A stretch of 38,615 bases of DNA from a virus: positions 1 to 38,615 of IMG/VR virus record IMGVR_UViG_3300046517_002079. One strand, written 5' to 3'. The notes below the pieces were generated by a model, which was not told the DNA's origin, searched no databases, and was given only the letters and a program-made list of their open reading frames with translations. Below are positions 5,959-35,294 of the stretch, piece by piece (positions within the stretch are counted from its first letter, which is position 1; the number at the start of each line of letters is the position of its first letter). The translations under genes and the position numbers were made by a program.

Positions 5959-8541
5959 GAACCGTTCGCGCGCCAGCACTTCGATTTGATGTTTGTCGGT
6001 CACGTTGGCATCGGCCTCGACCTCGACGTCGTTCCTGCGGGCCACAACGACGAGGCGGTTGATCCGCCCCCCCGGTCCCGAGAGCAGGTTCGAGGCGCTT
6101 TCGTTGGAAGCGCCCGTCCATGTGGCGATGCCCGCTTCGAGCTGCGCGGCGGTCGGGAAGTAGGGGTTGAGTGCTTCGCTTTTCTCCCAGAGAACCGCGT
6201 CGACCCAGAAGGTGACGGCGGCGGTGCCATTTGTGCGAACGGCGACTCCGGTATTACCGGACGCCGCCGCGGTGAGGCTGACGTCGATGCGCTGAAACCC
6301 AGTGGTCGCCACGAAGCTTTTGGTTGCCGAGCCGACCGCAGCGTCACCGACCACCAGTTGGAGCGACTCACCCCCCGCGTTCCCTTTCACATACGCGGAG
6401 ATGCGATAGGTGATGCCCGACACAACCGGGAGCACCTGTTCAAGGTCGAGCCCCTCTGAGCTTTTGACGCCCGGTGTGACCAGTTTGGCCGCGGCCACGC
6501 CGTCCTGATGCTGGCCGGTGTCGCGGGTGAGGGTGGCGCCGGTATTCGTTCGGAAGCCGCCGGCCCCGCCTACCCATTTGGCCGTGTTGACCTCGAAGTT
6601 CGGATTCGGTACCAGGTTCGTCTCTAGGATCGAGACCCCCATCGGGTCTAGGTAGAGCTGCGCGCCCCTCTGTGGGATCTCGCCGTAATAGGTGCCCGAT
6701 TCGTCCTGGCGCTGGTAACCGTCGCTGCGGATCTCGCCGGTTTTGCCCGAGTAGAGGACCACGTTGGCGGGTTCGCCCGCGAGGAGGCTGAAGTTGTCGA
6801 AGACGCGGGGTATGCCCGCTTCCGCGCCGGTGTAAGCGTCGTAGAAGCCGCCCTTGCCTTTCGCCAGGGTCCCGCCCGTCGCCAGGACAGAGCTCTGACC
6901 TTCGGTCAGCGGCGCCGGCTCAGCGCTCCCGCCCGCGAGGTAGCACCATGCTCGGAATATTCCTGCCGCATCGGCCTGAAGGGACACGATCATATGTGCG
7001 CTTGGCTGGGAAAATTCGGTGGGCAACTGTTTGAGAATGGTCGTCGGTACGGTCGCCACCGTTCTGGTCAGGGCGAGGTAGTAATACGGCACCCCGCTGA
7101 AGCTGGTGATATAGGCCATCAGCCAGTTCGATGTGTCGACGTAGCGCAGGAAGACCCCGCGGCGAAAGACACTCAACCCCTGCCACACCTTGCTCGACCA
7201 CAGTTCCACCGACACCTTGGAGGTGGTAGGTTCTTCCGTTCCCGCGAGCGCGAAAGACCCGGTCGTCAGAAGGCCGTCTTCTTTCGCGGTCCGTTCGGCC
7301 CAATGGTTCGCTGCGATGACTTTGAATCCCGCCGCTCCGGTTTTGCTCGCCTCCGCCCAGTTGCCGCCGAGAGGCATCGCGACCGGTGCGTCGAGGTTTG
7401 CTTCGGCCTGGAGGAACGTGTCGTAGGCGAGCAGCTTGGTCGGGCTGTTGTTCGCTTGCCCTCGCGCTCGAGCGCTGCCCTTGGTCGACGGGATCAATTC
7501 GAGGTAGTTGAGGTCGACTTCGATCGGTTCCCCGTTTGCCGACTTCACTTCGACGCGGAGTTCGGCTTTCTGTTCGCCCAGGAGCGCCTTGTCGAGGGTG
7601 ATCTCGCCCAGGAAGATGCGGGCGAATTCGAGGACAGAAGGCTGGACGAAACCCGGGTTAGCGATCGGGATCAGCGGTCCTTCGCCGTTGCGGTAGGCCA
7701 TGCGGAAGCGGGCCTGTTCGGAGCCGGTGAACACGCGGGCGTAGACCCTGTAGGAGCCAACGTTTTTAATCAGGCCGGTCCCGCACATCGTCGTGGCCTG
7801 GGAAACGGCGGTGGCGCGTTTCACTTTTTCTTCGGAGAAGGCCCCCGAGCGGGTGGTCGAGGAGCCCGAGAAGTTCGTGACGACGAGGTTTGCGGCGGTG
7901 AGCAGGACTGCGGGGTTCCCCGCTTCGCTCGCCACCAGCTCGCGCCCGAACTCCGCGTAGCGCCGGCTCTGGCTGGCTTTGTCGGTGACCTTGAGCCGCG
8001 CCTCCGCCGGGACATCGCCCCCGCACGCGGCATAGAGCACCTGTAGCGGTTCGGCCGCCGATTCGGTCGCCGCCTTGACCACCTTTTCTTCGGTGTAGAG
8101 GAAGGGGCGACAGGTCAGTTTGACCTTGATGACCGGGGACTTGATGAACCACCCCGCAAGTTCTCCGGTGGGGGTCACCGGCAGTTCCGACATTTCCGCC
8201 AGCGTCGTGTAGGCGGTGTAGGTGCGCGGCGAGTTGGCCGGGGTCCAGGGGGTTTCCACGCCGCCTTCGGCCCGTTCGGCGGCCTGGAGAGCGTCCTGTA
8301 GCTGCCCGAGCAGGATGAAGGCCGCGTCGGTGCTCGCCGCGGGCCCTACCCGTATTTGCAGGTCGAAGGTTGCGTTCGAGTAGTGGGATTCCTGCACCAG
8401 CGCATCCCCGTCCGCGCTGGCGTTCGAGGCCCATAGCGGCTTCTTGGCCGCGGGTGTGAAGACCAGGCTTTCAAGGGTGAAGTTCACCCCATCGTTCAGC
8501 GCCAGGCCCGCGAGGGAAAATTGCTCGAGCGAGGAGGTCAT
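5944..8541 (-). CDS. Large minor tail (distal tail/tail-tip) protein with carbohydrate-binding-like segments
   Basis: The 865-residue protein starts at ATG 8541 directly after the tape-measure stop (TAG-ATG). The N-terminal 200 residues (LALNDGVNFTLESLVF, TFDLQIRVG) fit the distal-tail-type proteins that follow tape measures in siphoviruses of Gram-positive hosts. The middle and C-terminal parts are beta-rich. A segment at about residues 635-790 (NLVPNPNFEVNTAKW ... RISAYVKG ... FWVDAVLW) looks like a CBM_4_9/jelly-roll carbohydrate-binding module. Together with the next gene's GH26 domain this suggests a tail tip that binds surface glycans. Position is strong evidence for a tail role; the exact subunit is inferred. 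It ends before a plus-strand unit, so the tail operon is read antisense across that moron. Confidence 0.75.
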   Translation of the reverse strand: MTSSLEQFSLAGLALNDGVNFTLESLVFTPAAKKPLWASNASADGDALVQESHYSNATFDLQIRVGPAASTDAAFILLGQLQDALQAAERAEGGVETPWTPANSPRTYTAYTTLAEMSELPVTPTGELAGWFIKSPVIKVKLTCRPFLYTEEKVVKAATESAAEPLQVLYAACGGDVPAEARLKVTDKASQSRRYAEFGRELVASEAGNPAVLLTAANLVVTNFSGSSTTRSGAFSEEKVKRATAVSQATTMCGTGLIKNVGSYRVYARVFTGSEQARFRMAYRNGEGPLIPIANPGFVQPSVLEFARIFLGEITLDKALLGEQKAELRVEVKSANGEPIEVDLNYLELIPSTKGSARARGQANNSPTKLLAYDTFLQAEANLDAPVAMPLGGNWAEASKTGAAGFKVIAANHWAERTAKEDGLLTTGSFALAGTEEPTTSKVSVELWSSKVWQGLSVFRRGVFLRYVDTSNWLMAYITSFSGVPYYYLALTRTVATVPTTILKQLPTEFSQPSAHMIVSLQADAAGIFRAWCYLAGGSAEPAPLTEGQSSVLATGGTLAKGKGGFYDAYTGAEAGIPRVFDNFSLLAGEPANVVLYSGKTGEIRSDGYQRQDESGTYYGEIPQRGAQLYLDPMGVSILETNLVPNPNFEVNTAKWVGGAGGFRTNTGATLTRDTGQHQDGVAAAKLVTPGVKSSEGLDLEQVLPVVSGITYRISAYVKGNAGGESLQLVVGDAAVGSATKSFVATTGFQRIDVSLTAAASGNTGVAVRTNGTAAVTFWVDAVLWEKSEALNPYFPTAAQLEAGIATWTGASNESASNLLSGPGGRINRLVVVARRNDVEVEADANVTDKHQIEVLARERFLAPR

Positions 8542-22238: not shown

Positions 22239-22386
22239 CAGACCCACACCCTGTGTCGCTGACGGCCGGGACTTCCGCCCTGGTCACCCGGCATCTGGGT
22301 ATCGCCGGTCCGCAATATCCGGCGGTTAAGGATTAGCTTCAAGCCCCATGTCCTATTGGTATGGCGCCTCTTAGACGACGTCAGCA

Positions 22387-22459
22387 TGGCGCGGGCTGGA
22401 CTCGAACCAGCGACCTCCAGGTTATGAGCCTGGCGAGCTACCAACTGCTCCACCGCGCT
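22387..22459 (-). tRNA. tRNA-Met (CAT), initiator-like
   Basis: The minus strand folds into a 73-base cloverleaf (no CCA encoded). Acceptor AGCGCGG/CCGCGCC leaves A1 opposite C72 unpaired. The D-stem GAGC/GCTC has A11:T24, anticodon stem CCAGG/CCTGG frames loop CTCATAA, and T-stem GCTGG/CCAGC holds TTCGAGT. The unpaired 1:72 and the A11:T24 pair are initiator signatures. Anticodon-stem pairs 29-31 are A-T, G-C, G-C rather than three G-C, so one initiator feature is weaker. It lies in an intergenic gap between terminase-region and early genes. No second tRNA was seen. Confidence 0.88.
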
Positions 22460-22468
22460 ATGAAGCTT

Positions 22469-23322: not shown

Positions 23323-23522
23323 GATTCCTCGGCCCTGGTGGCATGAAGAAAATCGAGCCTGCAGCGGCCACCGCGAAGGCCGGTTAGGCGACGGAGGATG
23401 CTCAACTGCTCCTTCGTGCGGGCGTCAGCGAGAGGGCGTTCCTTGTCCGTTGCACCACCGGAGGCAGTGCTCACCGCCGCCCTCTCGCTGACGCCCGCCT
23501 TGTCGGGCCCCGCCTCCGGCAT
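23313..23522 (-). CDS. Small hypothetical basic protein
   Basis: The 69-residue frame's ATG overlaps the stop of the ParB-like gene (TGATG), and its end overlaps the next GTG start. Residues 1-30 are Ala/Ser/Gly-rich; residues 35-60 are helical and basic (TKEQLSILRRLTGLRGGRCRLDFL). No family is recognisable. Its coding status rests on coupling at both ends. Confidence 0.45.
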   Translation of the reverse strand: MPEAGPDKAGVSERAAVSTASGGATDKERPLADARTKEQLSILRRLTGLRGGRCRLDFLHATRAEESWK

Positions 23523-25399
23523 CAGCTGGCCTGGCGCTCCTTCTCCGCTGCCTTCAGCTTCTCGAGCCGCTTCTTGCCCGCCGCGGTGATCGTGTAGGTG
23601 GCGACACCATCGCCGTCATAGCCCTTGAGGAATTTGCGCTCGGATAGATCGCTCAGGAGCTCGTCGAGCTCGGCGACGCTGAGGTACGTGCATGAGAACG
23701 AGCATTTGAAGATCTTTTGCCTGATCTCAACGGCTCCAGCACCATGCTTGGCCCGGCTTTTACCGGCCAGCTCCAGAGCCATGCCTTCGTTGCTCTCGAC
23801 CTCGATCTTCGCTTCCTCCGCCCGCTCCCGCTCCCGCTCCTCCATCTCCTTGCGGAGGCTGTCGGGCAGCACGCCGCGCTTTTTCGCGATCTTGAGCGCA
23901 AGCGCCGAGAGGCGACCGCCGCCATAGGTGCCGCGCGGTTGCCAGCGCGTCCGGTTGGAGTTGGTAACGGCTTTCTCATCGGCGAATACGGCCAGCAGGA
24001 TCAACCGCACTCCCATCGCCAAGACGGCCTCTGGCGTCTTCCCCTTTTCGAGTGCATTGAGCAGATCGGCACCGGCAGACTTGCCGGATCTGTAGGCGAC
24101 CTTCACCCCGCCGTTTTTGAGATGGGTCTCGTCCTGGTAGTCGTGATGGCAATAGATGAGCCCACGACCGGCCACAGCCTCGACGTCGGCGCCGATCGCC
24201 AGTAGCACCAGCATCCGCGCCTCCTCAACCGTCAGGTCGGGCTCTCGGAAGGCTTTCTCTGCTCGCTGGCCGAGCTCAAGGTTCGCCGCCCGAGCGGCCT
24301 CGCGCTCTGCTTGCTCCTGTTCGCGCTGGCGCTTTCGCTCAGCCTTTGCCGCCTCCTCAGCTGCAGCCGGATCGCCGTCGTCGCTGGCGCCGGGCTTTGC
24401 GGGAGCGTCTCCCTTCTTCGGCATCTTTTCGAGCTTCTTGATTTTCTCGTCGAGGGATTTGCCGAACTGATCGGCCAGCCAGGCCGCATCGGTGATGTAC
24501 TCGCGGCCATCGACCTCGAGCAGGCAGCCGAACGCCTTGGCTGCATCCCTGTCGATATCGCCGCTGCTCAGGTAGCCCTGCGGCCCGACGAATTGGTCTA
24601 CCTCCTTGGCCAGCGCGTCCGCGCGGGCGGTCTTGTCCTTCAGCCGCGCGAGATCGTGATTGGAGATGCCATGAAAGCCGAGTTCGCGCACATCGATCGT
24701 GCCATAGCCGATTGAGACCATGCAACCCGCTGGGGCCTTCTCGTCGGCGCCCGCCATGCCGTCGGCCTCTTCGAGGGCCCGGTCTAGCGCTTCTGCAACT
24801 TCGCCGGCGCCTATCGCCTGCCGGATTTCCGGCACATCTGTGACGGCCTCAGCGAGCATCTCCGCGGCTCTCGGGGCCTGCTCCGCAATCTTCCTTACCT
24901 CGCGGAGCGACTCAAGCGGCAGCGCGCCCGAATTGAAGGCCTCCTGCGCCTTCTCGGGCAGGCCCAAGAGGAGCAGGCGATCGCGCACCCAGCGCTCCGA
25001 TTTCCCGAGCGCATCGGCAGCTTTGAGCTGCGTGAAGCCGTGGTCCTCCTGGAGCTTCTTGATCGCCTGGGCCTCAGCGACCGGGTCGAGGTCCTCGCGC
25101 TGGATGTTCTCCGTGAGCGCGGCGAGCAGCTCGGCCCCTTCCAGGTCCATGACCATCGCCGGCATCTCGGCGAGCTTCACATCGAGCGCCGCGGCGTGGC
25201 GGCGGTGCCCGGCGATCAACTTGTGCTTGCCATCACCGTTCGCCGGCGCCACCAGGATGGGTTGCAGGATGCCCCTGGCCCTGATCGAGACGCAGAGCTC
25301 GGCGAAGCTCTCCGAGCTGGTGTCGATCGCCCCTCGCGGGTTGTCATCGCCAATGGCGATCTTGGAAGTTGGGATCACGGACAGGGTGGGGCTGCTCAT
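23522..25399 (-). CDS. ParB/Spo0J-like nuclease-domain protein with long C-terminus
   Basis: The 625-residue protein has a ParB N-terminal domain: SKIAIGDDNPRG, then AELCVSIRARGILQPILV and the signature GHRR (64-67), followed by ENIQREDLDPVAEAQAI and a helix-turn-helix (GFTQLKAADALGKSERWVRDRLLL). These are the CTP-binding and DNA-binding parts of ParB. The remainder includes a charged Ala/Lys/Glu/Arg coiled stretch (residues about 345-385) and a C-terminal winged-helix-like piece (LSVAELDELLSDLSERKFLKGYDGDG). No ParA lies nearby, so a partition role is not evident; phage ParB-like proteins often act in replication or regulation. A dispersed palindrome copy lies inside (24071). Confidence 0.8.
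   Translation of the reverse strand: MSSPTLSVIPTSKIAIGDDNPRGAIDTSSESFAELCVSIRARGILQPILVAPANGDGKHKLIAGHRRHAAALDVKLAEMPAMVMDLEGAELLAALTENIQREDLDPVAEAQAIKKLQEDHGFTQLKAADALGKSERWVRDRLLLLGLPEKAQEAFNSGALPLESLREVRKIAEQAPRAAEMLAEAVTDVPEIRQAIGAGEVAEALDRALEEADGMAGADEKAPAGCMVSIGYGTIDVRELGFHGISNHDLARLKDKTARADALAKEVDQFVGPQGYLSSGDIDRDAAKAFGCLLEVDGREYITDAAWLADQFGKSLDEKIKKLEKMPKKGDAPAKPGASDDGDPAAAEEAAKAERKRQREQEQAEREAARAANLELGQRAEKAFREPDLTVEEARMLVLLAIGADVEAVAGRGLIYCHHDYQDETHLKNGGVKVAYRSGKSAGADLLNALEKGKTPEAVLAMGVRLILLAVFADEKAVTNSNRTRWQPRGTYGGGRLSALALKIAKKRGVLPDSLRKEMEERERERAEEAKIEVESNEGMALELAGKSRAKHGAGAVEIRQKIFKCSFSCTYLSVAELDELLSDLSERKFLKGYDGDGVATYTITAAGKKRLEKLKAAEKERQAS
24071..24087. repeat. Dispersed palindrome copy in the ParB-like gene
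   Basis: CCGGCA-GACT-TGCCGG on the plus strand. On the coding strand it reads in frame as TCC-GGC-AAG-TCT-GCC-GGT (SGKSAG). Confidence 0.65.
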
Positions 25400-25415: not shown

Positions 25416-27158
25416 TCAGGCCGCTACCTCCACGGCGCGGCGCTCTAGTACGGATTCAGCGAGCTGCTTGATGCGATCGCTGGGGTCTTGTGCGGTCGGT
25501 TCGAAGAGCTCGGCCTTCGGATTGCGGATCGGTTCGCTTTGCATCCGCTTCACGTCGAGAAGCTCGACCAGGCCGGGATCGGATCCCGACTCGGTCAGCA
25601 GGTAGTAGCCCACGACCGGCTTTTTCTGGCCGGGCCGAGGCAAGCGTCCGAGGCACTGGTCGTGGATCGGCGGCGCCCAGTCGAGCTCGGCGAATACGCC
25701 GGTATTGCATGCCTCCTGCAGCCCATCGAGTCCGGCACCCGAGCGAAGGGACATCAGCAGGACCCGAGCATCGCCCTTGATGAAGACCTCCTCGGCTCTG
25801 CGCTTGGCGACGTCGCTCTCCGAGCCCGTGTACATGATTGGCTTGAACTCCTCGAGGGCCGCATTGAGGATCGCGTAGACGGCGCGGTGCCATGCCCAGA
25901 CGACGACCTTCTCCTCGCCTTCGAGGAGCATCCGAACGAAGTCGGCCACATAGGGCGCCTTGGCGACGCCGGTTGCCTGCCGGATCTTGTTGTCGAGATC
26001 CCGTTCGGCCGCGAAGACCTCCTGCTGGGTGGTGGCCTTGCTCAGGATCAGCTCGGCTAGGGCCTTGGCATCGCTGGTCGCCTCCTCGATCAGATCCGTT
26101 TCGGCTTCGATTGTGTGTGGGATCTTCAGCGCCTGTTCAGGCCGCTCGCGGCCGACCTCCTCCCATGTGCGGTGCAGCAGCAGGCCTTCTTCGTGGAGGT
26201 AGGTACCAAGCTCGCGCGCCCGCACCTTGAGGTGGCCGCCTTCGAACTTCGTGTCGATCTTGTCTCCGCTGGAGACGCCCCACTCGCGGGCGAACTCTTC
26301 TCGCTCGCCCAGGCAGCCCGGGCGGATCACGTCGAGGATGTTGTAGGCCTCACCGCCGAAGTTGAAGACCGGCGTGCCGGACAGCCCCATGCAGAACTTG
26401 GCGCCATCGGTGATCTGCCCTGCCGCCGTCGTCTTCGCCGCCTCGGCGCGGCGCAGCTCCTGGCACTCGTCGAAGATCACCGTTTTGACCTCGCCCGCCA
26501 GGTGGTCGGCCCAGCCGGCGAGCTTCATGTAGGTGCTGATCAGGACGTCGGGGTGATAGCCGTGCATCCCGCGTTTTTTGCTCGGGTCATAGACCGCGCC
26601 CGTGCGGATGATGTGGCTGCGGAGCCAGGGCAGGAGTTCTTCGAGTTGCTTCTGCCACTGGCGGGTGAGGTGGGATTGCACGACGATCAGCGCGGGCAGC
26701 GCTTCTGGATTGCGCAGCATCAGCAGCGAGGTGTAGGTCTTGCCCATCGCGAGCTCGTCGGTGACGATCAGGCCCCCGGTCTTCATCGCCAGCTCGGCGG
26801 CCTGGTACTGGTACTCGTCGACATGGTCGGCCGGCTCCTGCCAGTCGTCGGATTCGCGCTCGCCGGAGAGGATTCGGGTGACCGCCGCCTTGTGGTCGAA
26901 GTGCTCGGTCGTGCGCCGCTCCAGATAGCCGCGGTCCGCGTCGGTCAGCTCTAGGTCCCAGCGCTCGAGGATCCAGGTGATCTCCCGCGCGTTCTCCGGC
27001 GTGTCACTGAGAAGGACGGAACCGGCGCGCCGGACCTCGACCTTGGGTAGAGCCTTCTTCAGGCGCATCATCACGTCTGGCCGAGCCTTGATCTCCCACT
27101 GGGACGGGCCGTTGTCGGCGAAGGCGGGCGCCAGATGTTTGACGATGCCGAGGTTCAC
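25416..27158 (-). CDS. SNF2-family DEAD-box-like helicase/translocase
   Basis: The 580-residue protein carries superfamily 2 motifs in order: Walker A DELAMGKT (residues 134-141, the SNF2 form), motif II DECQ (230-233), motif III GLSGTP (258-263), motif V LMSLRSGAGLDGLQEA and motif VI DQCLGRLPRPGQKKPV. The first 100 residues are an extra N-terminal region without recognised fold. SNF2 enzymes use ATP to move on duplex DNA. The stop of the next-upstream nuclease gene overlaps this start by four bases, so helicase and nuclease are co-expressed and probably act together on DNA. Phage copies may help recombination, replication restart or anti-defence; this is inference. Confidence 0.88.
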   Translation of the reverse strand: MNLGIVKHLAPAFADNGPSQWEIKARPDVMMRLKKALPKVEVRRAGSVLLSDTPENAREITWILERWDLELTDADRGYLERRTTEHFDHKAAVTRILSGERESDDWQEPADHVDEYQYQAAELAMKTGGLIVTDELAMGKTYTSLLMLRNPEALPALIVVQSHLTRQWQKQLEELLPWLRSHIIRTGAVYDPSKKRGMHGYHPDVLISTYMKLAGWADHLAGEVKTVIFDECQELRRAEAAKTTAAGQITDGAKFCMGLSGTPVFNFGGEAYNILDVIRPGCLGEREEFAREWGVSSGDKIDTKFEGGHLKVRARELGTYLHEEGLLLHRTWEEVGRERPEQALKIPHTIEAETDLIEEATSDAKALAELILSKATTQQEVFAAERDLDNKIRQATGVAKAPYVADFVRMLLEGEEKVVVWAWHRAVYAILNAALEEFKPIMYTGSESDVAKRRAEEVFIKGDARVLLMSLRSGAGLDGLQEACNTGVFAELDWAPPIHDQCLGRLPRPGQKKPVVGYYLLTESGSDPGLVELLDVKRMQSEPIRNPKAELFEPTAQDPSDRIKQLAESVLERRAVEVAA

Positions 27159-29805: not shown

Positions 29806-30323
29806 GCTGCCATCTCCCCACCGCCCTGCTCGCCACCGACGGAGGCAGTACCTGCCGAAACCGGCCGGTCGCCGGCGGCGAGCACGGCGGTGTCGAAGTC
29901 GTCGAAGCGGCGCATCGCCTCGATCTCGAAGCCCCAGTCGTCGATGAAGGCGATCTGTTCGGGGACCAGGACCTCGGCTGGCACTCGCAGCGGCGGCGTC
30001 AGCGCGTTGTCGAAGCGTCGGTGGTGGCCCTCGCAGCCGAGGCCGCCGACGTTGCGGATGTCCCATTCGCAGAGCTCGACCAGGTCGTCGACGTCGGAGC
30101 GCGTGAGCTCGTCGATCGGCAGCCCGCGGGGCAGGTCCATCAGCTGCGGGCGCAGGATCTCCCGGATCCGCATGCGGCCGATCAGGTGGATGACTTCGAA
30201 GCGCTCGCTGCAGGACTTGTTGTGCTCGTCGAATTGCCGTAGCCAGCAGCGACGGCCGTGGACGGCATAGCCCTTCTCGTAGAAGGCGCTGGTGAGCTCG
30301 GGTGGAGGCGGCCGGCGCTTCAC
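29802..30323 (-). CDS. HNH-like/treble-clef protein
   Basis: Start set at GTG 30323 (VKRRPPPPELTSAFYEKG), overlapping the DUF1643 stop. The 173-residue product has Cys and His spaced as in HNH/treble-clef folds: RRCWL, KSCSERFEVIHLIGR, CEWDIRN, GLGCEGHHRRFDNALTPP. The GC-x-G-HHRRFD stretch looks like the catalytic His region. I infer a metal-dependent nuclease or nucleic-acid-binding protein. The 40-residue tail is Gly/Ala-rich. Confidence 0.55.
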   Translation of the reverse strand: MKRRPPPPELTSAFYEKGYAVHGRRCWLRQFDEHNKSCSERFEVIHLIGRMRIREILRPQLMDLPRGLPIDELTRSDVDDLVELCEWDIRNVGGLGCEGHHRRFDNALTPPLRVPAEVLVPEQIAFIDDWGFEIEAMRRFDDFDTAVLAAGDRPVSAGTASVGGEQGGGEMAA

Positions 30324-30835
30324 CGGCTCGCCCCCAGGGCGTAGTAGACGAATGGCACCGGCTCGAAATCGTCGGGAACTCGATGCTTCCCCCGAGCGAG
30401 TGGATGTCGTGGAAACCCCTCCTCTGTCGTGCCGAGGCAGTCGAGCTGGGTCCCAAGTCGCTTGCACATCGAGAGGACCTCGGCTTGCCGCCGATTCGTG
30501 ATCTTCCGCACCGACGCCCCCCATGCGGCGATCGCTTGGCCGGCGGCGATCAGCGCCCCTTCGAGCGTGTGATCGTTGAGAGGCCCTACCGGATCGTCGG
30601 CCGTCAGCAAGCCGTTCGGATCGGTCGATCGAAGGGCGAACAGATTCACGACTTCGAGGCGCTGAAAGCCCCAACGCTGCGCGAACTTGATGCACCTACC
30701 GATCGTCGGGTCGTCTTCGATCGCGTCCGCGGTCGATGGATTGAGCATCACGAACAGGCAAGTGCCCTCGCCCATCATCCACTCGCGATCGAGCGTATAG
30801 CGGTAGCGCCCGCAATCCGAAATCAGGGCGGTCAT
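30320..30835 (-). CDS. DUF1643 family protein
   Basis: The 171-residue protein has the DUF1643 signature: RYRYTLDREWMMGEG, then CLFVMLNPSTADAIEDDPTIGRCIKFAQRWGF, LFALRSTDP and GPLNDHTL. DUF1643 occurs widely in bacteria and phages with no settled function. Its length and motif order are typical. It overlaps genes on both sides by four bases, within the leftward operon that begins near the integrase. Confidence 0.85.
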   Translation of the reverse strand: MTALISDCGRYRYTLDREWMMGEGTCLFVMLNPSTADAIEDDPTIGRCIKFAQRWGFQRLEVVNLFALRSTDPNGLLTADDPVGPLNDHTLEGALIAAGQAIAAWGASVRKITNRRQAEVLSMCKRLGTQLDCLGTTEEGFPRHPLARGKHRVPDDFEPVPFVYYALGASR

Positions 30836-31170: not shown

Positions 31171-32607
31171 ATGCAGCTGGACGGCTATATCCGTGTCTCC
31201 AAGGTCGGCAAACGGAAGGATGCGGGTGAGCGCTTCATCTCTCCGGAGGACCAACGTTCGAAAATCGAGGGCTGGGCGAAGCTGCGCGGGGTGACGATCG
31301 CCAACTGGGAGACCGACCTCGATCGGACCGGCAAGATCCTGGAACGGCCCGGGCTCGACCGAATCCTCGCCCGGATCGAGCGGGGCGAAACCGGCGGCAT
31401 CGCGGTCGCCTACATCGACCGCTTCTCTCGCGCCGACGTCGGCGATGCCCTGAAGCTGATCGAGTGGATCGACAGCCAGGGCGGCAGCTTCGCGGCGCTG
31501 GACTACGGCCTGGACCCGACGACGCCGTTTGGGGAGTTCGGGCTGACGCTCCTCCTGGGCCTGGCTCGGCTGCAGAGTCGGCAGAAGGGGGAGCGCTGGT
31601 ACACCGCCCGCAGCTTCGCCGTCGAGCGCGGCACCTTCGTCGGCGGCTATGTCCCGGCCGGGCTGCGCAAGCGCGAGGACGGGCGACTCGAGCGCGATCC
31701 GACGATTCGGCATGATCTGATCCGGGACCTCTTCGGAAAGCGGGCAGGTAAGGAGTCCTGGTCGAGGATCGCGGCCTGGCTCTCCGAGGAGCTCGGGCGC
31801 CCGATCAGCATCCCCGCCGTCCGGGCCCTGATCCGAAATCGGGTCTACCTGGGCGAGGTCAACGGCGGTCAGGGCCTCGTCAATCGGCAGGCGCATGAGC
31901 CGCTGGTCAGTCGCTCGCTCTTCGAGGCGGCCAACGCGGTGAGGGGAGTGGTGCCGGCCCGAAGCGGCAGGTCTGCCGGTCTGCTCTCCGGGCTCTTGCG
32001 CTGCGCCGGCTGCCGGTATGCGATGAAGGCCTCGATGAACAAAAACGCCGGCGAGGATCGGCTCGAGTACCGCTGCAAGGCGACAAGGGCCGAAACTACC
32101 GAGCGCTGTCCGTCGCCAGCGACGATCTCGGCGCACCTGATCGACGGGCTGGTGCTCGAGGAGTTCCGCAAGCACATTGCGGGCTACCGGCTCGCGCAGC
32201 TGGAGGGGTCGAAGGAGGTCGAGGAAGCCGAAGCAGCCCTGCTCGCCGCGGAGACCGAGCTCGATGCCACGCTCGACACCCGTCTCGCCGAAGCGCTGGG
32301 CTCGGACTCCGCCCGCTACCTCGAGCTCGTTGGTTCCCGCCAGGAGGCCGTCGACGCCGCCCGCGGGGTGCTCGCCGATGCCACCGGAAAGCAGATCGCC
32401 TTGCCGAAGGCCGACATCTGGGAGATCTGGCCAGACCTGGATCTTCACGAGCGCCGTCGTCTCCTCGCGTCAGCTCTTGACTGCGTGTTTGTCCGGAGGG
32501 GCAGGGATGCCGCGTCGAGAACCCACCTCTGCTGGCGCGGAGAGGCGCCGGAGCTCCCGCGCAGCGGCGCGCGTTGGACTCCGCTTCCGTTCGACTTTCC
32601 AGCGTGA
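31171..32607 (+). CDS. int: Large serine recombinase (integrase)
   Basis: The 478-residue protein has the resolvase catalytic domain with YIRVS (Ser10), conserved Arg in YIDRFSRAD, then a recombinase domain (KRAGKESWSRIAAWLSEELGRPIS, VRALIRNRVYLGEV), a zinc ribbon with CAGC and a later Cys in TERCPSP, and a C-terminal coiled coil (EVEEAEAALLAAETELDATLD). That is the full architecture of unidirectional serine integrases. It would recombine attP with a host attB. AGGGG lies close upstream of ATG 31171. The 3' end overlaps an opposite-strand gene by 138 bases. A dispersed palindrome copy lies at 31965, coding GRSAG. It is the only plus-strand gene between 5.8 and 37 kb. Confidence 0.95.
   Translation: MQLDGYIRVSKVGKRKDAGERFISPEDQRSKIEGWAKLRGVTIANWETDLDRTGKILERPGLDRILARIERGETGGIAVAYIDRFSRADVGDALKLIEWIDSQGGSFAALDYGLDPTTPFGEFGLTLLLGLARLQSRQKGERWYTARSFAVERGTFVGGYVPAGLRKREDGRLERDPTIRHDLIRDLFGKRAGKESWSRIAAWLSEELGRPISIPAVRALIRNRVYLGEVNGGQGLVNRQAHEPLVSRSLFEAANAVRGVVPARSGRSAGLLSGLLRCAGCRYAMKASMNKNAGEDRLEYRCKATRAETTERCPSPATISAHLIDGLVLEEFRKHIAGYRLAQLEGSKEVEEAEAALLAAETELDATLDTRLAEALGSDSARYLELVGSRQEAVDAARGVLADATGKQIALPKADIWEIWPDLDLHERRRLLASALDCVFVRRGRDAASRTHLCWRGEAPELPRSGARWTPLPFDFPA
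31964..31980. repeat. Dispersed palindrome copy in the integrase gene
   Basis: GCGGCAG-GT-CTGCCGGT. On the plus coding strand it reads AGC-GGC-AGG-TCT-GCC-GGT (SGRSAG), the same frame as the minus-strand copies although the gene is opposite in direction. Confidence 0.65.
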
Positions 32608-32894: not shown

Positions 32895-33100
32895 CTGCCG
32901 AAGCCCTCCAGCATCGGTTCGCGCAGGATCGACTTAAGCCGGTCGATCGCGTCCGAGGCATCGCGGGCCCAGTGGACCTTCGGGACCTCGATCCCGGCCT
33001 CGCGGGAGAGCGCAGCGATGCAGCTGCGCTGCCGCGGAGTGGCCAGCGGCCGTGACCGCCGGGCGCGCTCCGCGGCAAGAAAGGCCTGCGAACGTTTCAC
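32891..33100 (-). CDS. DUF3072-like small helical protein
   Basis: Start set at GTG 33100 (VKRSQAFLAAERARRSRPLATPRQRSC), coupled to the previous stop. The 69-residue product contains TPRQRSCIAALSREAGIEVP and ASDAIDRLKSIL, the 'T-P-x-Q-x-x-x-I-x-x-L-x-x-E-x-G' pattern of DUF3072 and of short C-terminal domains in some phage recombination proteins. Function unknown. Confidence 0.55.
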   Translation of the reverse strand: MKRSQAFLAAERARRSRPLATPRQRSCIAALSREAGIEVPKVHWARDASDAIDRLKSILREPMLEGFGR

Positions 33101-33978
33101 GCGACCGCCGTGGGAACCGGGAGAGCTTCCAGCTCGGCAATGAGGCGATCGGCCTCTCGTTCGAACGCCGCCGACTCCGCCGACTCCGCCGACCGCGCCG
33201 CCGACCACTCCGCCGACTCCGCCGACTCCGCCGACTCCGCCGACCACGCCGCCGACTCCGCCGACGCCGCCGACTCCGCCGACTCCGCCGACCGCGCCGC
33301 CGACCACGCCGCCGACTCCGCCGACGCCGCCGACTCCGCCGACGCCGCCGACTCCGCCGACCACGCCGACCGCGCCGCCGACCACGCCGCCGACTCCGCC
33401 GACCGCGCCGCCGACTCCGCCGCCGACTCCGCCGCCGACTCCGCCGACTCCGCCGCCGACTCCGCCGCCGACTCCGCCGCCGACACGTTTTGCTTACCTT
33501 CGAGCGCAGCGATGACCTTCTCGATGGCGGCGACCACCTCACCTCGGATCGACTCCGGCCACTGGCCGCTGAGGGGCAAGCACTCCTCCTTCAGCCGCCG
33601 GATGGCGAGGCGATCGGCCAGGCCGTCGAAGTCGGCACCGACCGGGATAGCCTCAGCGAAGCGACGTGGCCACTCGGCGGCTTTCTCCTTCGGCAGGCCC
33701 TCGAAGATCTTGTCCTCTAGGTGGGCGAGCCACTTGGGGAGGCCGAACAGCTCCGGGTAGAGCGCATGAAGGTCGTCCGTCGTGCGCTGCTCGGCCGTCG
33801 CTGCGGAATGGACTGAGCAGCCCACCGCGCACCGTTCGAAGTGACCATTGGCCTTGCGGCCGTACGTGCCCTGCACGATGGCGTCGGTCTCCTCATGGGC
33901 GGCGATGTTCGCCAGGAGTACGTCCTTGGTGGCCTGCTCGCCGTGGTAGGCACGCAGCGGTTGGGTTGCCGTGGGCAT
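33097..33978 (-). CDS. Phage protein with long Ala/Ser/Glu helical repeat tail
   Basis: The 293-residue protein starts MPTATQPLRAYHGEQATKDVLLANIAAHEETDAIVQGTYG. The first 160 residues include CAVGCSVHS, LHALYPELFGLPKWLAHLEDKIFEGLPKEKAAEWPRRFAEAIPVGADFDGLADRLAI, a pattern I know from many actinobacterial phage proteins of unknown role. Residues about 165-270 are an irregular SAESAAESAARSAESAAWSA repeat, alanine-rich and helical, with scattered Trp and Arg. The DNA there is a tandem GCCGACTCC-type repeat. It may be a single long helix or coiled coil. Function unknown. Confidence 0.75.
   Translation of the reverse strand: MPTATQPLRAYHGEQATKDVLLANIAAHEETDAIVQGTYGRKANGHFERCAVGCSVHSAATAEQRTTDDLHALYPELFGLPKWLAHLEDKIFEGLPKEKAAEWPRRFAEAIPVGADFDGLADRLAIRRLKEECLPLSGQWPESIRGEVVAAIEKVIAALEGKQNVSAAESAAESAAESAESAAESAAESAARSAESAAWSAARSAWSAESAASAESAASAESAAWSAARSAESAESAASAESAAWSAESAESAESAEWSAARSAESAESAAFEREADRLIAELEALPVPTAVA
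33165..33486. repeat. Tandem GC-rich triplet-multiple repeat
   Basis: About 320 bases consist of GCCGACTCC, GCCGACCAC, GCCGACCGC and similar units in multiples of three, so length changes keep frame. All six frames stay largely open, producing several artefactual ORFs. It encodes the Ala/Ser/Glu tail of the protein above. Confidence 0.85.
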
Positions 33979-34200
33979 CTAGCTCTCCTCGCTGGCGCCA
34001 TTGGCGCCGTCGTAGTCGTGCTCCTCGAGCACATGGACGTAGCCAATTGCGCAGATCGCATGCACGAAACCGAGCGACCCTGCCTTGCGGATGTAGGACT
34101 CGCCGGCGAGGATCGGCTCGGGGCAAAGCGGGCAGGAGCCGTTCATCTTGGCGAGGACTTCCGGGCCGAGGTCTGGCACCGCGAGGTCGGCCACGGTCAT
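33979..34200 (-). CDS. Small zinc-binding protein
   Basis: The 73-residue product has CPLCPEPILAGESYIRKAGSLGFVHAICA: C-P-L-C plus H-A-x-C typical of a small zinc finger. The remainder is acidic (LEEHDYDGANGASEES). It overlaps the replication initiator's stop by four bases on one side. Such small zinc proteins are frequent next to phage replication genes. Its role is unknown; likely nucleic-acid or protein binding. Confidence 0.65.
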   Translation of the reverse strand: MTVADLAVPDLGPEVLAKMNGSCPLCPEPILAGESYIRKAGSLGFVHAICAIGYVHVLEEHDYDGANGASEES

Positions 34201-35294
34201 GCCGCCTCGAGCTCCAACGTCTTCTCGTCGATCAGCTCGATCGTTGTGTAACCGGAGTCGCCCGCTTCGAGCGCTTCGCGGATCAGGGCGCTGTAGCGGG
34301 AGGTCCAGCCCCCCGAGCCCTGGGAGTCGATGAGCACCAGGTGGCCGTCGCGCTCTCCGGCCGCCTCGAGCGGGGCGATCCAGAGGTTGAAGGTCGACTC
34401 CGGGATCGAGCTTGCGATCACCTTCTTCGCCTCATCCCAAACCGCGACCGCCTTCTCGAGGTCAGTGATCGGCGCCGACGGGGCGGTCGGAGTGTCGCCC
34501 GGTGCCATCTTCGCGAAACGTTCGACGTTGTCGCGGTTGCGGAAGATCAGGGCGAGGTCGTCCTCGATCTTGCCGTCGCGGTTCGCATGCTTGCCGCGCT
34601 TCTGGTGCCAGTCCGAGGCGGCGCAGCCGGCGATCGCGGCGCGGAGCTCGTCAAGGGTCGAGTCCTGGAGGCGGGCCTTGGTCGCCTTGCGCCGTTTCGG
34701 GGTGAATTGCGTCGAGCCGTTCCGGCCTGTCAGCTGCTTCCAGAAATCGAAGAGCTGGCGAGAAAGATCGGTGTCCCCCTCCTGGGGGACTACAGGGGGT
34801 TGTTGTTGGTTAAAGGACGGTTCCCTATATAGACGGGGTGCGCCTTTCTTCACCAGGCCCCCCCCGCTAGCTTCACCAGGTCCTGGTGAAGAATCTGCAC
34901 CAGCCTCTGGGGAAGGCTCTGCATCGGGGGCTGGTGAAGAATCTGCACCCCACCCTGGTGCAAGATCTGCACTAGAGCCGAAGATCTGGAAGTACGGGTG
35001 GTCGGGGTCGAGGATGCCGCTCATCCCCGGCAGGCGGAGGTAGTAGAGCGGCGGGCGATGCTGGCCGGGGTGGGCCGTGACGACCACGATCAGCTCGCCC
35101 AGGTCCTCGCGGAGCACGCCCAGGCAATCGGTCACCGCTCGGACGCTCAGCTTCGCCTCCTCGGCGATGAGCCGCTTCGAGAGGAAGACGATGCCGTATT
35201 TGTCGGCGTGGTTGCCGAGCGAGACCGCGGTGAGCCGCGTCCCCTTCGTCGACTCCGAATGGTCGAGCACGGCTCCGAGCGCCTGGACGCTCAT
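34197..35294 (-). CDS. Replication initiator: wHTH N-terminus, DnaA-domain-I-like C-terminus
   Basis: Start set at ATG 35294 (MSVQALGAVLDHSESTKGTRLT), behind AGGAGG and coupled to the previous stop. The 365-residue protein has an N-terminal winged-helix domain (GIVFLSKRLIAEEAKLSVRAVTDCLGVLREDLGELIVV), a low-complexity linker of about 107-137 encoding 8-residue repeats (ADSSP, AEPSP), and a middle helical region (FDFWKQLTGRNGSTQFTPKRRK). The C-terminus (IPESTFNLWIAPLEA ... GSGGWTSRYSALIREAL) resembles DnaA domain I, the helicase-contacting part of bacterial DnaA. It resembles lambda O in plan: DNA binding at the front, helicase recruitment at the back. The linker DNA is a 24-bp iteron array, so the origin is probably inside the gene. 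Confidence 0.8.
   Translation of the reverse strand: MSVQALGAVLDHSESTKGTRLTAVSLGNHADKYGIVFLSKRLIAEEAKLSVRAVTDCLGVLREDLGELIVVVTAHPGQHRPPLYYLRLPGMSGILDPDHPYFQIFGSSADLAPGWGADSSPAPDAEPSPEAGADSSPGPGEASGGGLVKKGAPRLYREPSFNQQQPPVVPQEGDTDLSRQLFDFWKQLTGRNGSTQFTPKRRKATKARLQDSTLDELRAAIAGCAASDWHQKRGKHANRDGKIEDDLALIFRNRDNVERFAKMAPGDTPTAPSAPITDLEKAVAVWDEAKKVIASSIPESTFNLWIAPLEAAGERDGHLVLIDSQGSGGWTSRYSALIREALEAGDSGYTTIELIDEKTLELEAA
34849..34972. other. Iteron array inside the initiator gene: probable replication origin
   Basis: Four direct repeats of CTGGTGAAGAATCTGCAC-type sequence start at 34883, 34907, 34931 and 34955, exactly 24 bases apart with six-base spacers; the first and third are identical. Two inverted partial units (CTTCACCAG) lie at 34849 and 34871, the latter forming a palindrome with repeat one. 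A comparatively AT-rich stretch at about 34797-34835 (TTGTTGTTGGTTAAAGG, CTATATAG) flanks the array. This is the layout of lambda ori within gene O. Confidence 0.7.

Follow-up and report, generated by a model that had tools for sequence, protein, structure and literature searches.

Does a phage carry the origin of its DNA replication inside the gene for its own initiator protein? The question is raised by the IMG/VR virus record IMGVR_UViG_3300046517_002079 (38.6 kb, 65% GC; analysed over its whole length and called the window here), in which an array of direct repeats lies within an O-like replication initiator gene. We consider that the array probably forms part of a lambda-type replication origin embedded in this gene, and, judging from the sequence evidence, put the probability at roughly 85%. 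The likeness to lambda ori in gene O, put forward in an earlier sequence-only reading of this DNA, is borne out by the O-like families matched by the protein, by the arrays and silent constraint in the linkers of relatives and by the order of iterons followed by AT-rich DNA.

The initiator gene and its repeat array

The gene product is 365 amino acids long, and PHROGs replication initiation families (O-like) match parts of it. Winged-helix folds are predicted for residues ~2–108, with middling Z-scores (VIA-align); a search of the sequence against solved structures gave nothing useful. The gene and its domains, including a winged helix-turn-helix (wHTH) domain, are:

34197–35294, minus strand: O-like replication initiator gene (PHROGs, Pfam, alignment, predicted structure)
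Residues 1 to ~100: wHTH domain
Residues ~103–175: linker
Residues ~176–262: Phg_2220_C-like middle domain
Residues 276–357: DnaA domain I-like C-terminus

Four dyad-symmetric units of ~21 bp follow each other at a spacing of exactly 24 bp (34883–34975), in the linker-coding part after the DNA-binding domain. The repeats had been placed between the wHTH and DnaA-like domains; this order stands, with the amendment that the additional Phg_2220_C-like domain separates the linker from the DnaA-like domain. The elements of the site are:

34883–34903: iteron copy CTGGTGAAGAATCTGCACCAG, 9 of 10 dyad pairs
34907–34927: degenerate iteron copy CTGGGGAAGGCTCTGCATCGG
34931–34951: iteron copy CTGGTGAAGAATCTGCACCCC
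34955–34975: iteron copy CTGGTGCAAGATCTGCACTAG
34871–34891: perfect palindrome with 9-bp arms, CTTCACCAG-GTC-CTGGTGAAG, having a half unit in common with the adjacent iteron copy
34846–34860: isolated half unit TTCTTCACCAGGCCC, on the AT-rich side of the array
34803–34832: candidate unwinding element; among non-overlapping 30-mers of the 38.6-kb contig, only one is less stable
34869–34970, minus strand: stretch of 34 codons with G or C at 7 of 34 third positions (contig mean 28.4 of 34)

The 17-base core occurs on the minus strand in two exact copies and two with three mismatches, while shuffles lead to an expectation of 0.07; the spacing claimed for the repeats is therefore right, and the term near-identical applies to two copies out of four, the others differing at 3 of 17 positions. 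The four 19-mers of the array have a mean pairwise identity of 81%, and the next best four-copy array of period 20–26 bp in the contig, leaving out the low-complexity repeat gene at 33.1–33.5 kb, reaches 60%. Nine of ten dyad pairs, as in the best unit, are reached by 0.013% of the 21-mers in the contig; one degenerate copy of the four has five. The inverted partial units that had been proposed correspond to the perfect palindrome and the isolated half unit, and the AT-rich patch said to adjoin the repeats is the candidate unwinding element listed above. In the direction of the gene, the DNA-binding domain comes first, then the iterons and the AT-rich patch, and finally the C-terminal domains. 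The features of a lambda-type origin are present as far as they can be read from the sequence: a gene with a predicted DNA-binding domain around the site, several dyad iterons of ~18–21 bp and a candidate AT-rich tract directly 3' of them.

For such a site we infer that the initiator binds the DNA, that the DNA melts, that a helicase is recruited and that the site acts as an origin. In this scheme, the N-terminal winged-helix domain would attach to the dyad-symmetric units, probably in dimeric form; several initiators may stack beside the AT-rich patch and help to open it; and the C-terminal half, with its Phg_2220_C-like and DnaA domain I-like parts, may then bring in the host replisome.

Linker repeats in related initiators

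Distant homologues of the initiator were found with tblastn in Vibrio, Thalassomonas, Acinetobacter, Marinomonas, Cobetia and Arthrobacter phages, in several of which the next gene carries a P-like, DnaC or helicase annotation. Scanning viral contigs with an alignment led to 80 loci, and 35 dereplicated initiator genes were tested, namely those of the window, of phage KellEzio and of 33 relatives. In 32 of the 35, the strongest direct repeat (12–60 bp) sits in the linker, 13–56 amino acids before the middle domain (P 1e-18 compared with a uniform position, assuming a 60-residue target in a 280-residue gene). The repeats beat synonymous shuffles at P<=0.05 in 26 of the 35 genes. A scan of genome contigs with a four-member alignment gave one distant locus, the best repeat of which was not significant.

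The spacing of the linker repeats is not a multiple of three in 12 of 32 cases, which puts one and the same DNA unit into different reading frames; multiples of three (20/32) are more frequent than one third, as would follow from a need for duplications to preserve the frame. Among relatives that share the wHTH domain with the window, one (L025) has GGGCGACGCCAGTGTCGCCC at 22 and 23 bp, two (L028 and L068) have four copies each at 22 bp, and KellEzio and Decurro have linker repeats at 23 and 25 bp, respectively. The units of L068 hold a 13-base word, AGAATCTGCACCA, that is also found in the best unit of the window. In four further loci (L098–L101), the repeats are at 21 or 22 bp. The period of 24 bp had been taken to link protein and DNA repeats through its equality with eight codons. 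This fails as a general rule: spacings of 14, 16, 22 or 23 bp, which are out of frame, occur in many relatives, and the equality with eight codons is incidental, a feature of the window phage and not of the class. As a separate observation, a wHTH relative with a different C-terminus (L094, ~6287–6350) has linker repeats containing GGTGCAGAAATTGCAC and GGTGCAGATTTTGCGC, which resemble the window copy AGTGCAGATCTTGCACC.

Silent changes between related genes are about ten times rarer in the repeats, with 6 in 323 repeat codons versus 819 in 4441 others (20 pairs, partly redundant). Taking one pair from each of five clades, there is one silent change in 64 iteron codons versus 222 in 1163 (P 3e-5). 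This result points to a DNA-level constraint in the initiator family and is not evidence for the particular array of the window, for which no close relative was found.

Codon choice and alternative explanations

Several observations weigh against an origin at this site. No close relative was found with the initiator, the terminase or the exact 18-mer iteron as query in viral contigs, or with the initiator in genome contigs. In relatives, the AT-rich side after the repeats is not consistent (20/32). GC skew does not turn at the array; an inflection there had been suggested as a check, but is not necessarily expected at such a site, and the skew is uninformative as an origin signal. The 24/48-bp repetition exceeds that expected from codon choice at phage usage with the protein sequence fixed (P 0.015 and 0.031; longest run P 0.003), but the excess largely disappears once the choice is limited to A/T-ending codons (P 0.08 and 0.23; longest run 0.015). 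The protein repeat, together with A/T-ending codons, accounts for part of the repetition.

Because this A/T-ending null removes most of the repetition excess, the anomaly in codon composition is the stronger statistic within the initiator gene. Third-position GC falls from ~0.93 ahead of the array to 0.20 across it. None of 6614 windows of equal length from twelve other genes of the contig reaches 7 of 34 G/C third positions, their minimum being 19. Phage-wide, GGT, GCA, TCT, TCA and CCA each make up 4–8% of the codons of their own amino acid, and GAT makes up 27%.

The array is in frame with the gene and encodes GADSSPxP-like repeats, so that a protein repeat alone could yield it. It might then be a mere proline-, serine- and acid-rich linker that arose by in-frame 24-bp duplication, the DNA having no role, and A/T-ending codons do predict much of the identity at lags 24 and 48. 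We find this improbable: the third positions depart far from the habit of the phage exactly at the array, the arrays of relatives often lie out of frame, with constraint on their silent sites, and the units are dyad-symmetric.

With a similarly small probability, the units could be operator or partition sites instead of an origin, serving autoregulation of the initiator operon or the ParB-like protein encoded at 23522–25399. The contig does encode this protein and helix-turn-helix regulators, and initiators commonly autoregulate, which would also be compatible with an origin. However, a search with the 17-mer core found no further copies of the unit in the contig, the surroundings of the regulator genes included, and in relatives the element stays with the initiator linker while the flanking genes differ.

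That the A/T-rich third positions reflect recent import from a lower-GC phage, and not selection on a DNA element, is the least credible of the alternatives: tailed-phage genomes are mosaic and the low third-position GC covers ~200 bp (~34994 to ~34770, AT-rich patch included), but import leaves the repeats and dyads unexplained, and an imported stretch could be an imported origin, which makes it partly compatible with an origin at this site.

The DnaA domain I-like tail

The AlphaFold2 model of the initiator (four sequences) has a mean predicted local distance difference test (pLDDT) score of 58.6 overall and ~80 over residues 281–365; predicted alone, the C-terminal domain gave a weaker model (mean 62.7). 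The top Foldseek matches of the tail are to DnaA domain I in the SirA-DnaA complex 4tps (E-values no better than 0.015–0.025, but probability 1.0 and target template modelling score 0.82). VIA-align superimposes the tail on 4tps with a Z-score of 11.8 and a root-mean-square deviation of 1.9 over 82 residues (276–357), the next row (Z 8.1) covering the opposite end of the model. Pfam DnaA_N matches residues 284–322 with an E-value of 1.7e-4, its score of 21.6 being below the curated cut-off of 24.6. A W...F..WI.PL-type motif is common to the tail and E. coli DnaA domain I; with this motif and a predicted alpha-alpha-beta-beta-alpha-beta fold, the tail appears to be a DnaA domain I.

In the tail, the equivalent of W6 is retained. 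The E. coli DnaB-contact residue E21 aligns with a threonine (pairwise alignment), and F46, another DnaB contact, falls outside the aligned part, where by eye the tail has no phenylalanine. Because contact between domain I and the helicase has been demonstrated for E. coli only, according to a review (PMC5448010), we pose direct helicase recruitment by the tail as a hypothesis. DnaB_C and IstB/DnaC had no match in the record, which may be incomplete, or in the scanned genes; the lambda P family was not searched by name. It is possible, but in our judgement rather unlikely, that a DnaA domain I in the initiator itself gives the origin-bound complex direct access to the helicase pathway of the host, so that the phage can dispense with a P- or DnaC-like loader such as is encoded beside the initiator in some relatives.

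The DnaA-like tail was recognised in none of the other 89 genes with the middle domain, although L024 and four genes with misplaced boundaries were not looked at closely. Most of these genes stop 20–40 amino acids past the middle domain, some 70, and L024 148. Five matches to DnaA domain I in the phage collection were inspected: four (L103–L106) are ordinary DnaA genes, and Brevibacillus phage Jenst has the only initiator of another type. For phage initiators with a DnaA_N tail, nothing was found in the open-access literature subset, which is weak evidence of absence.

Comparison with known initiators and origins

Gene O of lambda contains four hyphenated inverted repeats of 18 bp and, next to them, an AT-rich region of 39 bp (PMC6022878, PMC7466680). 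The window resembles lambda ori, and that of Stx phages, in that the proposed origin is placed centrally in the initiator gene, with four iterons in the form of inverted repeats and an adjacent AT-rich tract; lambda O likewise has an N-terminal DNA-binding domain, a flexible linker and a C-terminal partner-binding domain (PMC6022878, PMC7466680). The iteron sequence differs, the C-terminus in the window combines a Phg_2220_C-like with a DnaA domain I-like domain where lambda has a P-binding region, and the window has no detected DnaC-like or DnaB-like gene. In pSK41-type RepA_N initiators, likewise, four initiator boxes are central in rep, the origin encodes the linker, and an N-terminal DNA-binding domain is combined with a C-terminal host-interaction domain (PMC5703833). 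That C-terminal domain is DnaD-like, whereas it is DnaA domain I-like in the window, the initiator of which has no RepA_N (PF06970) match among Pfam matches at E<=1. An origin in the initiator gene is a known design, of which lambda and the RepA_N plasmids (pSK41, for instance) are examples; it is the C-terminal module that is unusual.

The Jenst initiator (L102, 2167–3207) has a wHTH-like region (by eye), a linker with a direct repeat of 22 bp in its gene and a DnaA_N-like domain at the C-terminus, and, given this protein, the combination is not unique to the window phage. Jenst differs in that the Phg_2220_C-like middle domain was not recognised by eye and overall sequence similarity is low; its linker repeat has two copies only, with no null comparison behind it. 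Arthrobacter phages KellEzio and Decurro have O-like initiators in which a related N-terminal wHTH domain is followed by linker repeats, with other C-terminal parts to which Pfam DnaA_N has no match.

Other genes of the record

Just downstream of the initiator, the gene at 33097–33978 (minus strand) encodes ~100 residues of AES/SAA/SAW repeats, and the DNA repeats in it (33165–33484) have periods of 9, 12 and 78 bp. A large serine integrase (31171–32607, plus strand) lies among minus-strand genes and suggests a temperate phage. The gene for the ParB-like protein (minus strand) adjoins that of an SNF2-type helicase (25416–27158, minus strand); ParA was not noticed in the Pfam and PHROGs matches. 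A DUF1643 protein (30320–30835, minus strand) is strongly matched (E 4e-43), and a tRNA-Met gene (22386–22460, minus strand) resembles a segment of Pseudanabaena phage Pan5 (~90% identical, ~73 bp).

Implications

An origin at this site would extend the lambda layout to a GC-rich phage for which no close relatives were found, and over several dozen relatives there is DNA-level evidence for origin-like repeats in the initiator linker. If the tail does recruit host machinery, these initiators would illustrate how modules that recruit the replisome are exchanged in nature while the DNA-binding and origin cassette stays the same. Linker repeats of this kind would allow origins to be predicted from nothing but the sequence in many phages that are as yet uncharacterised.
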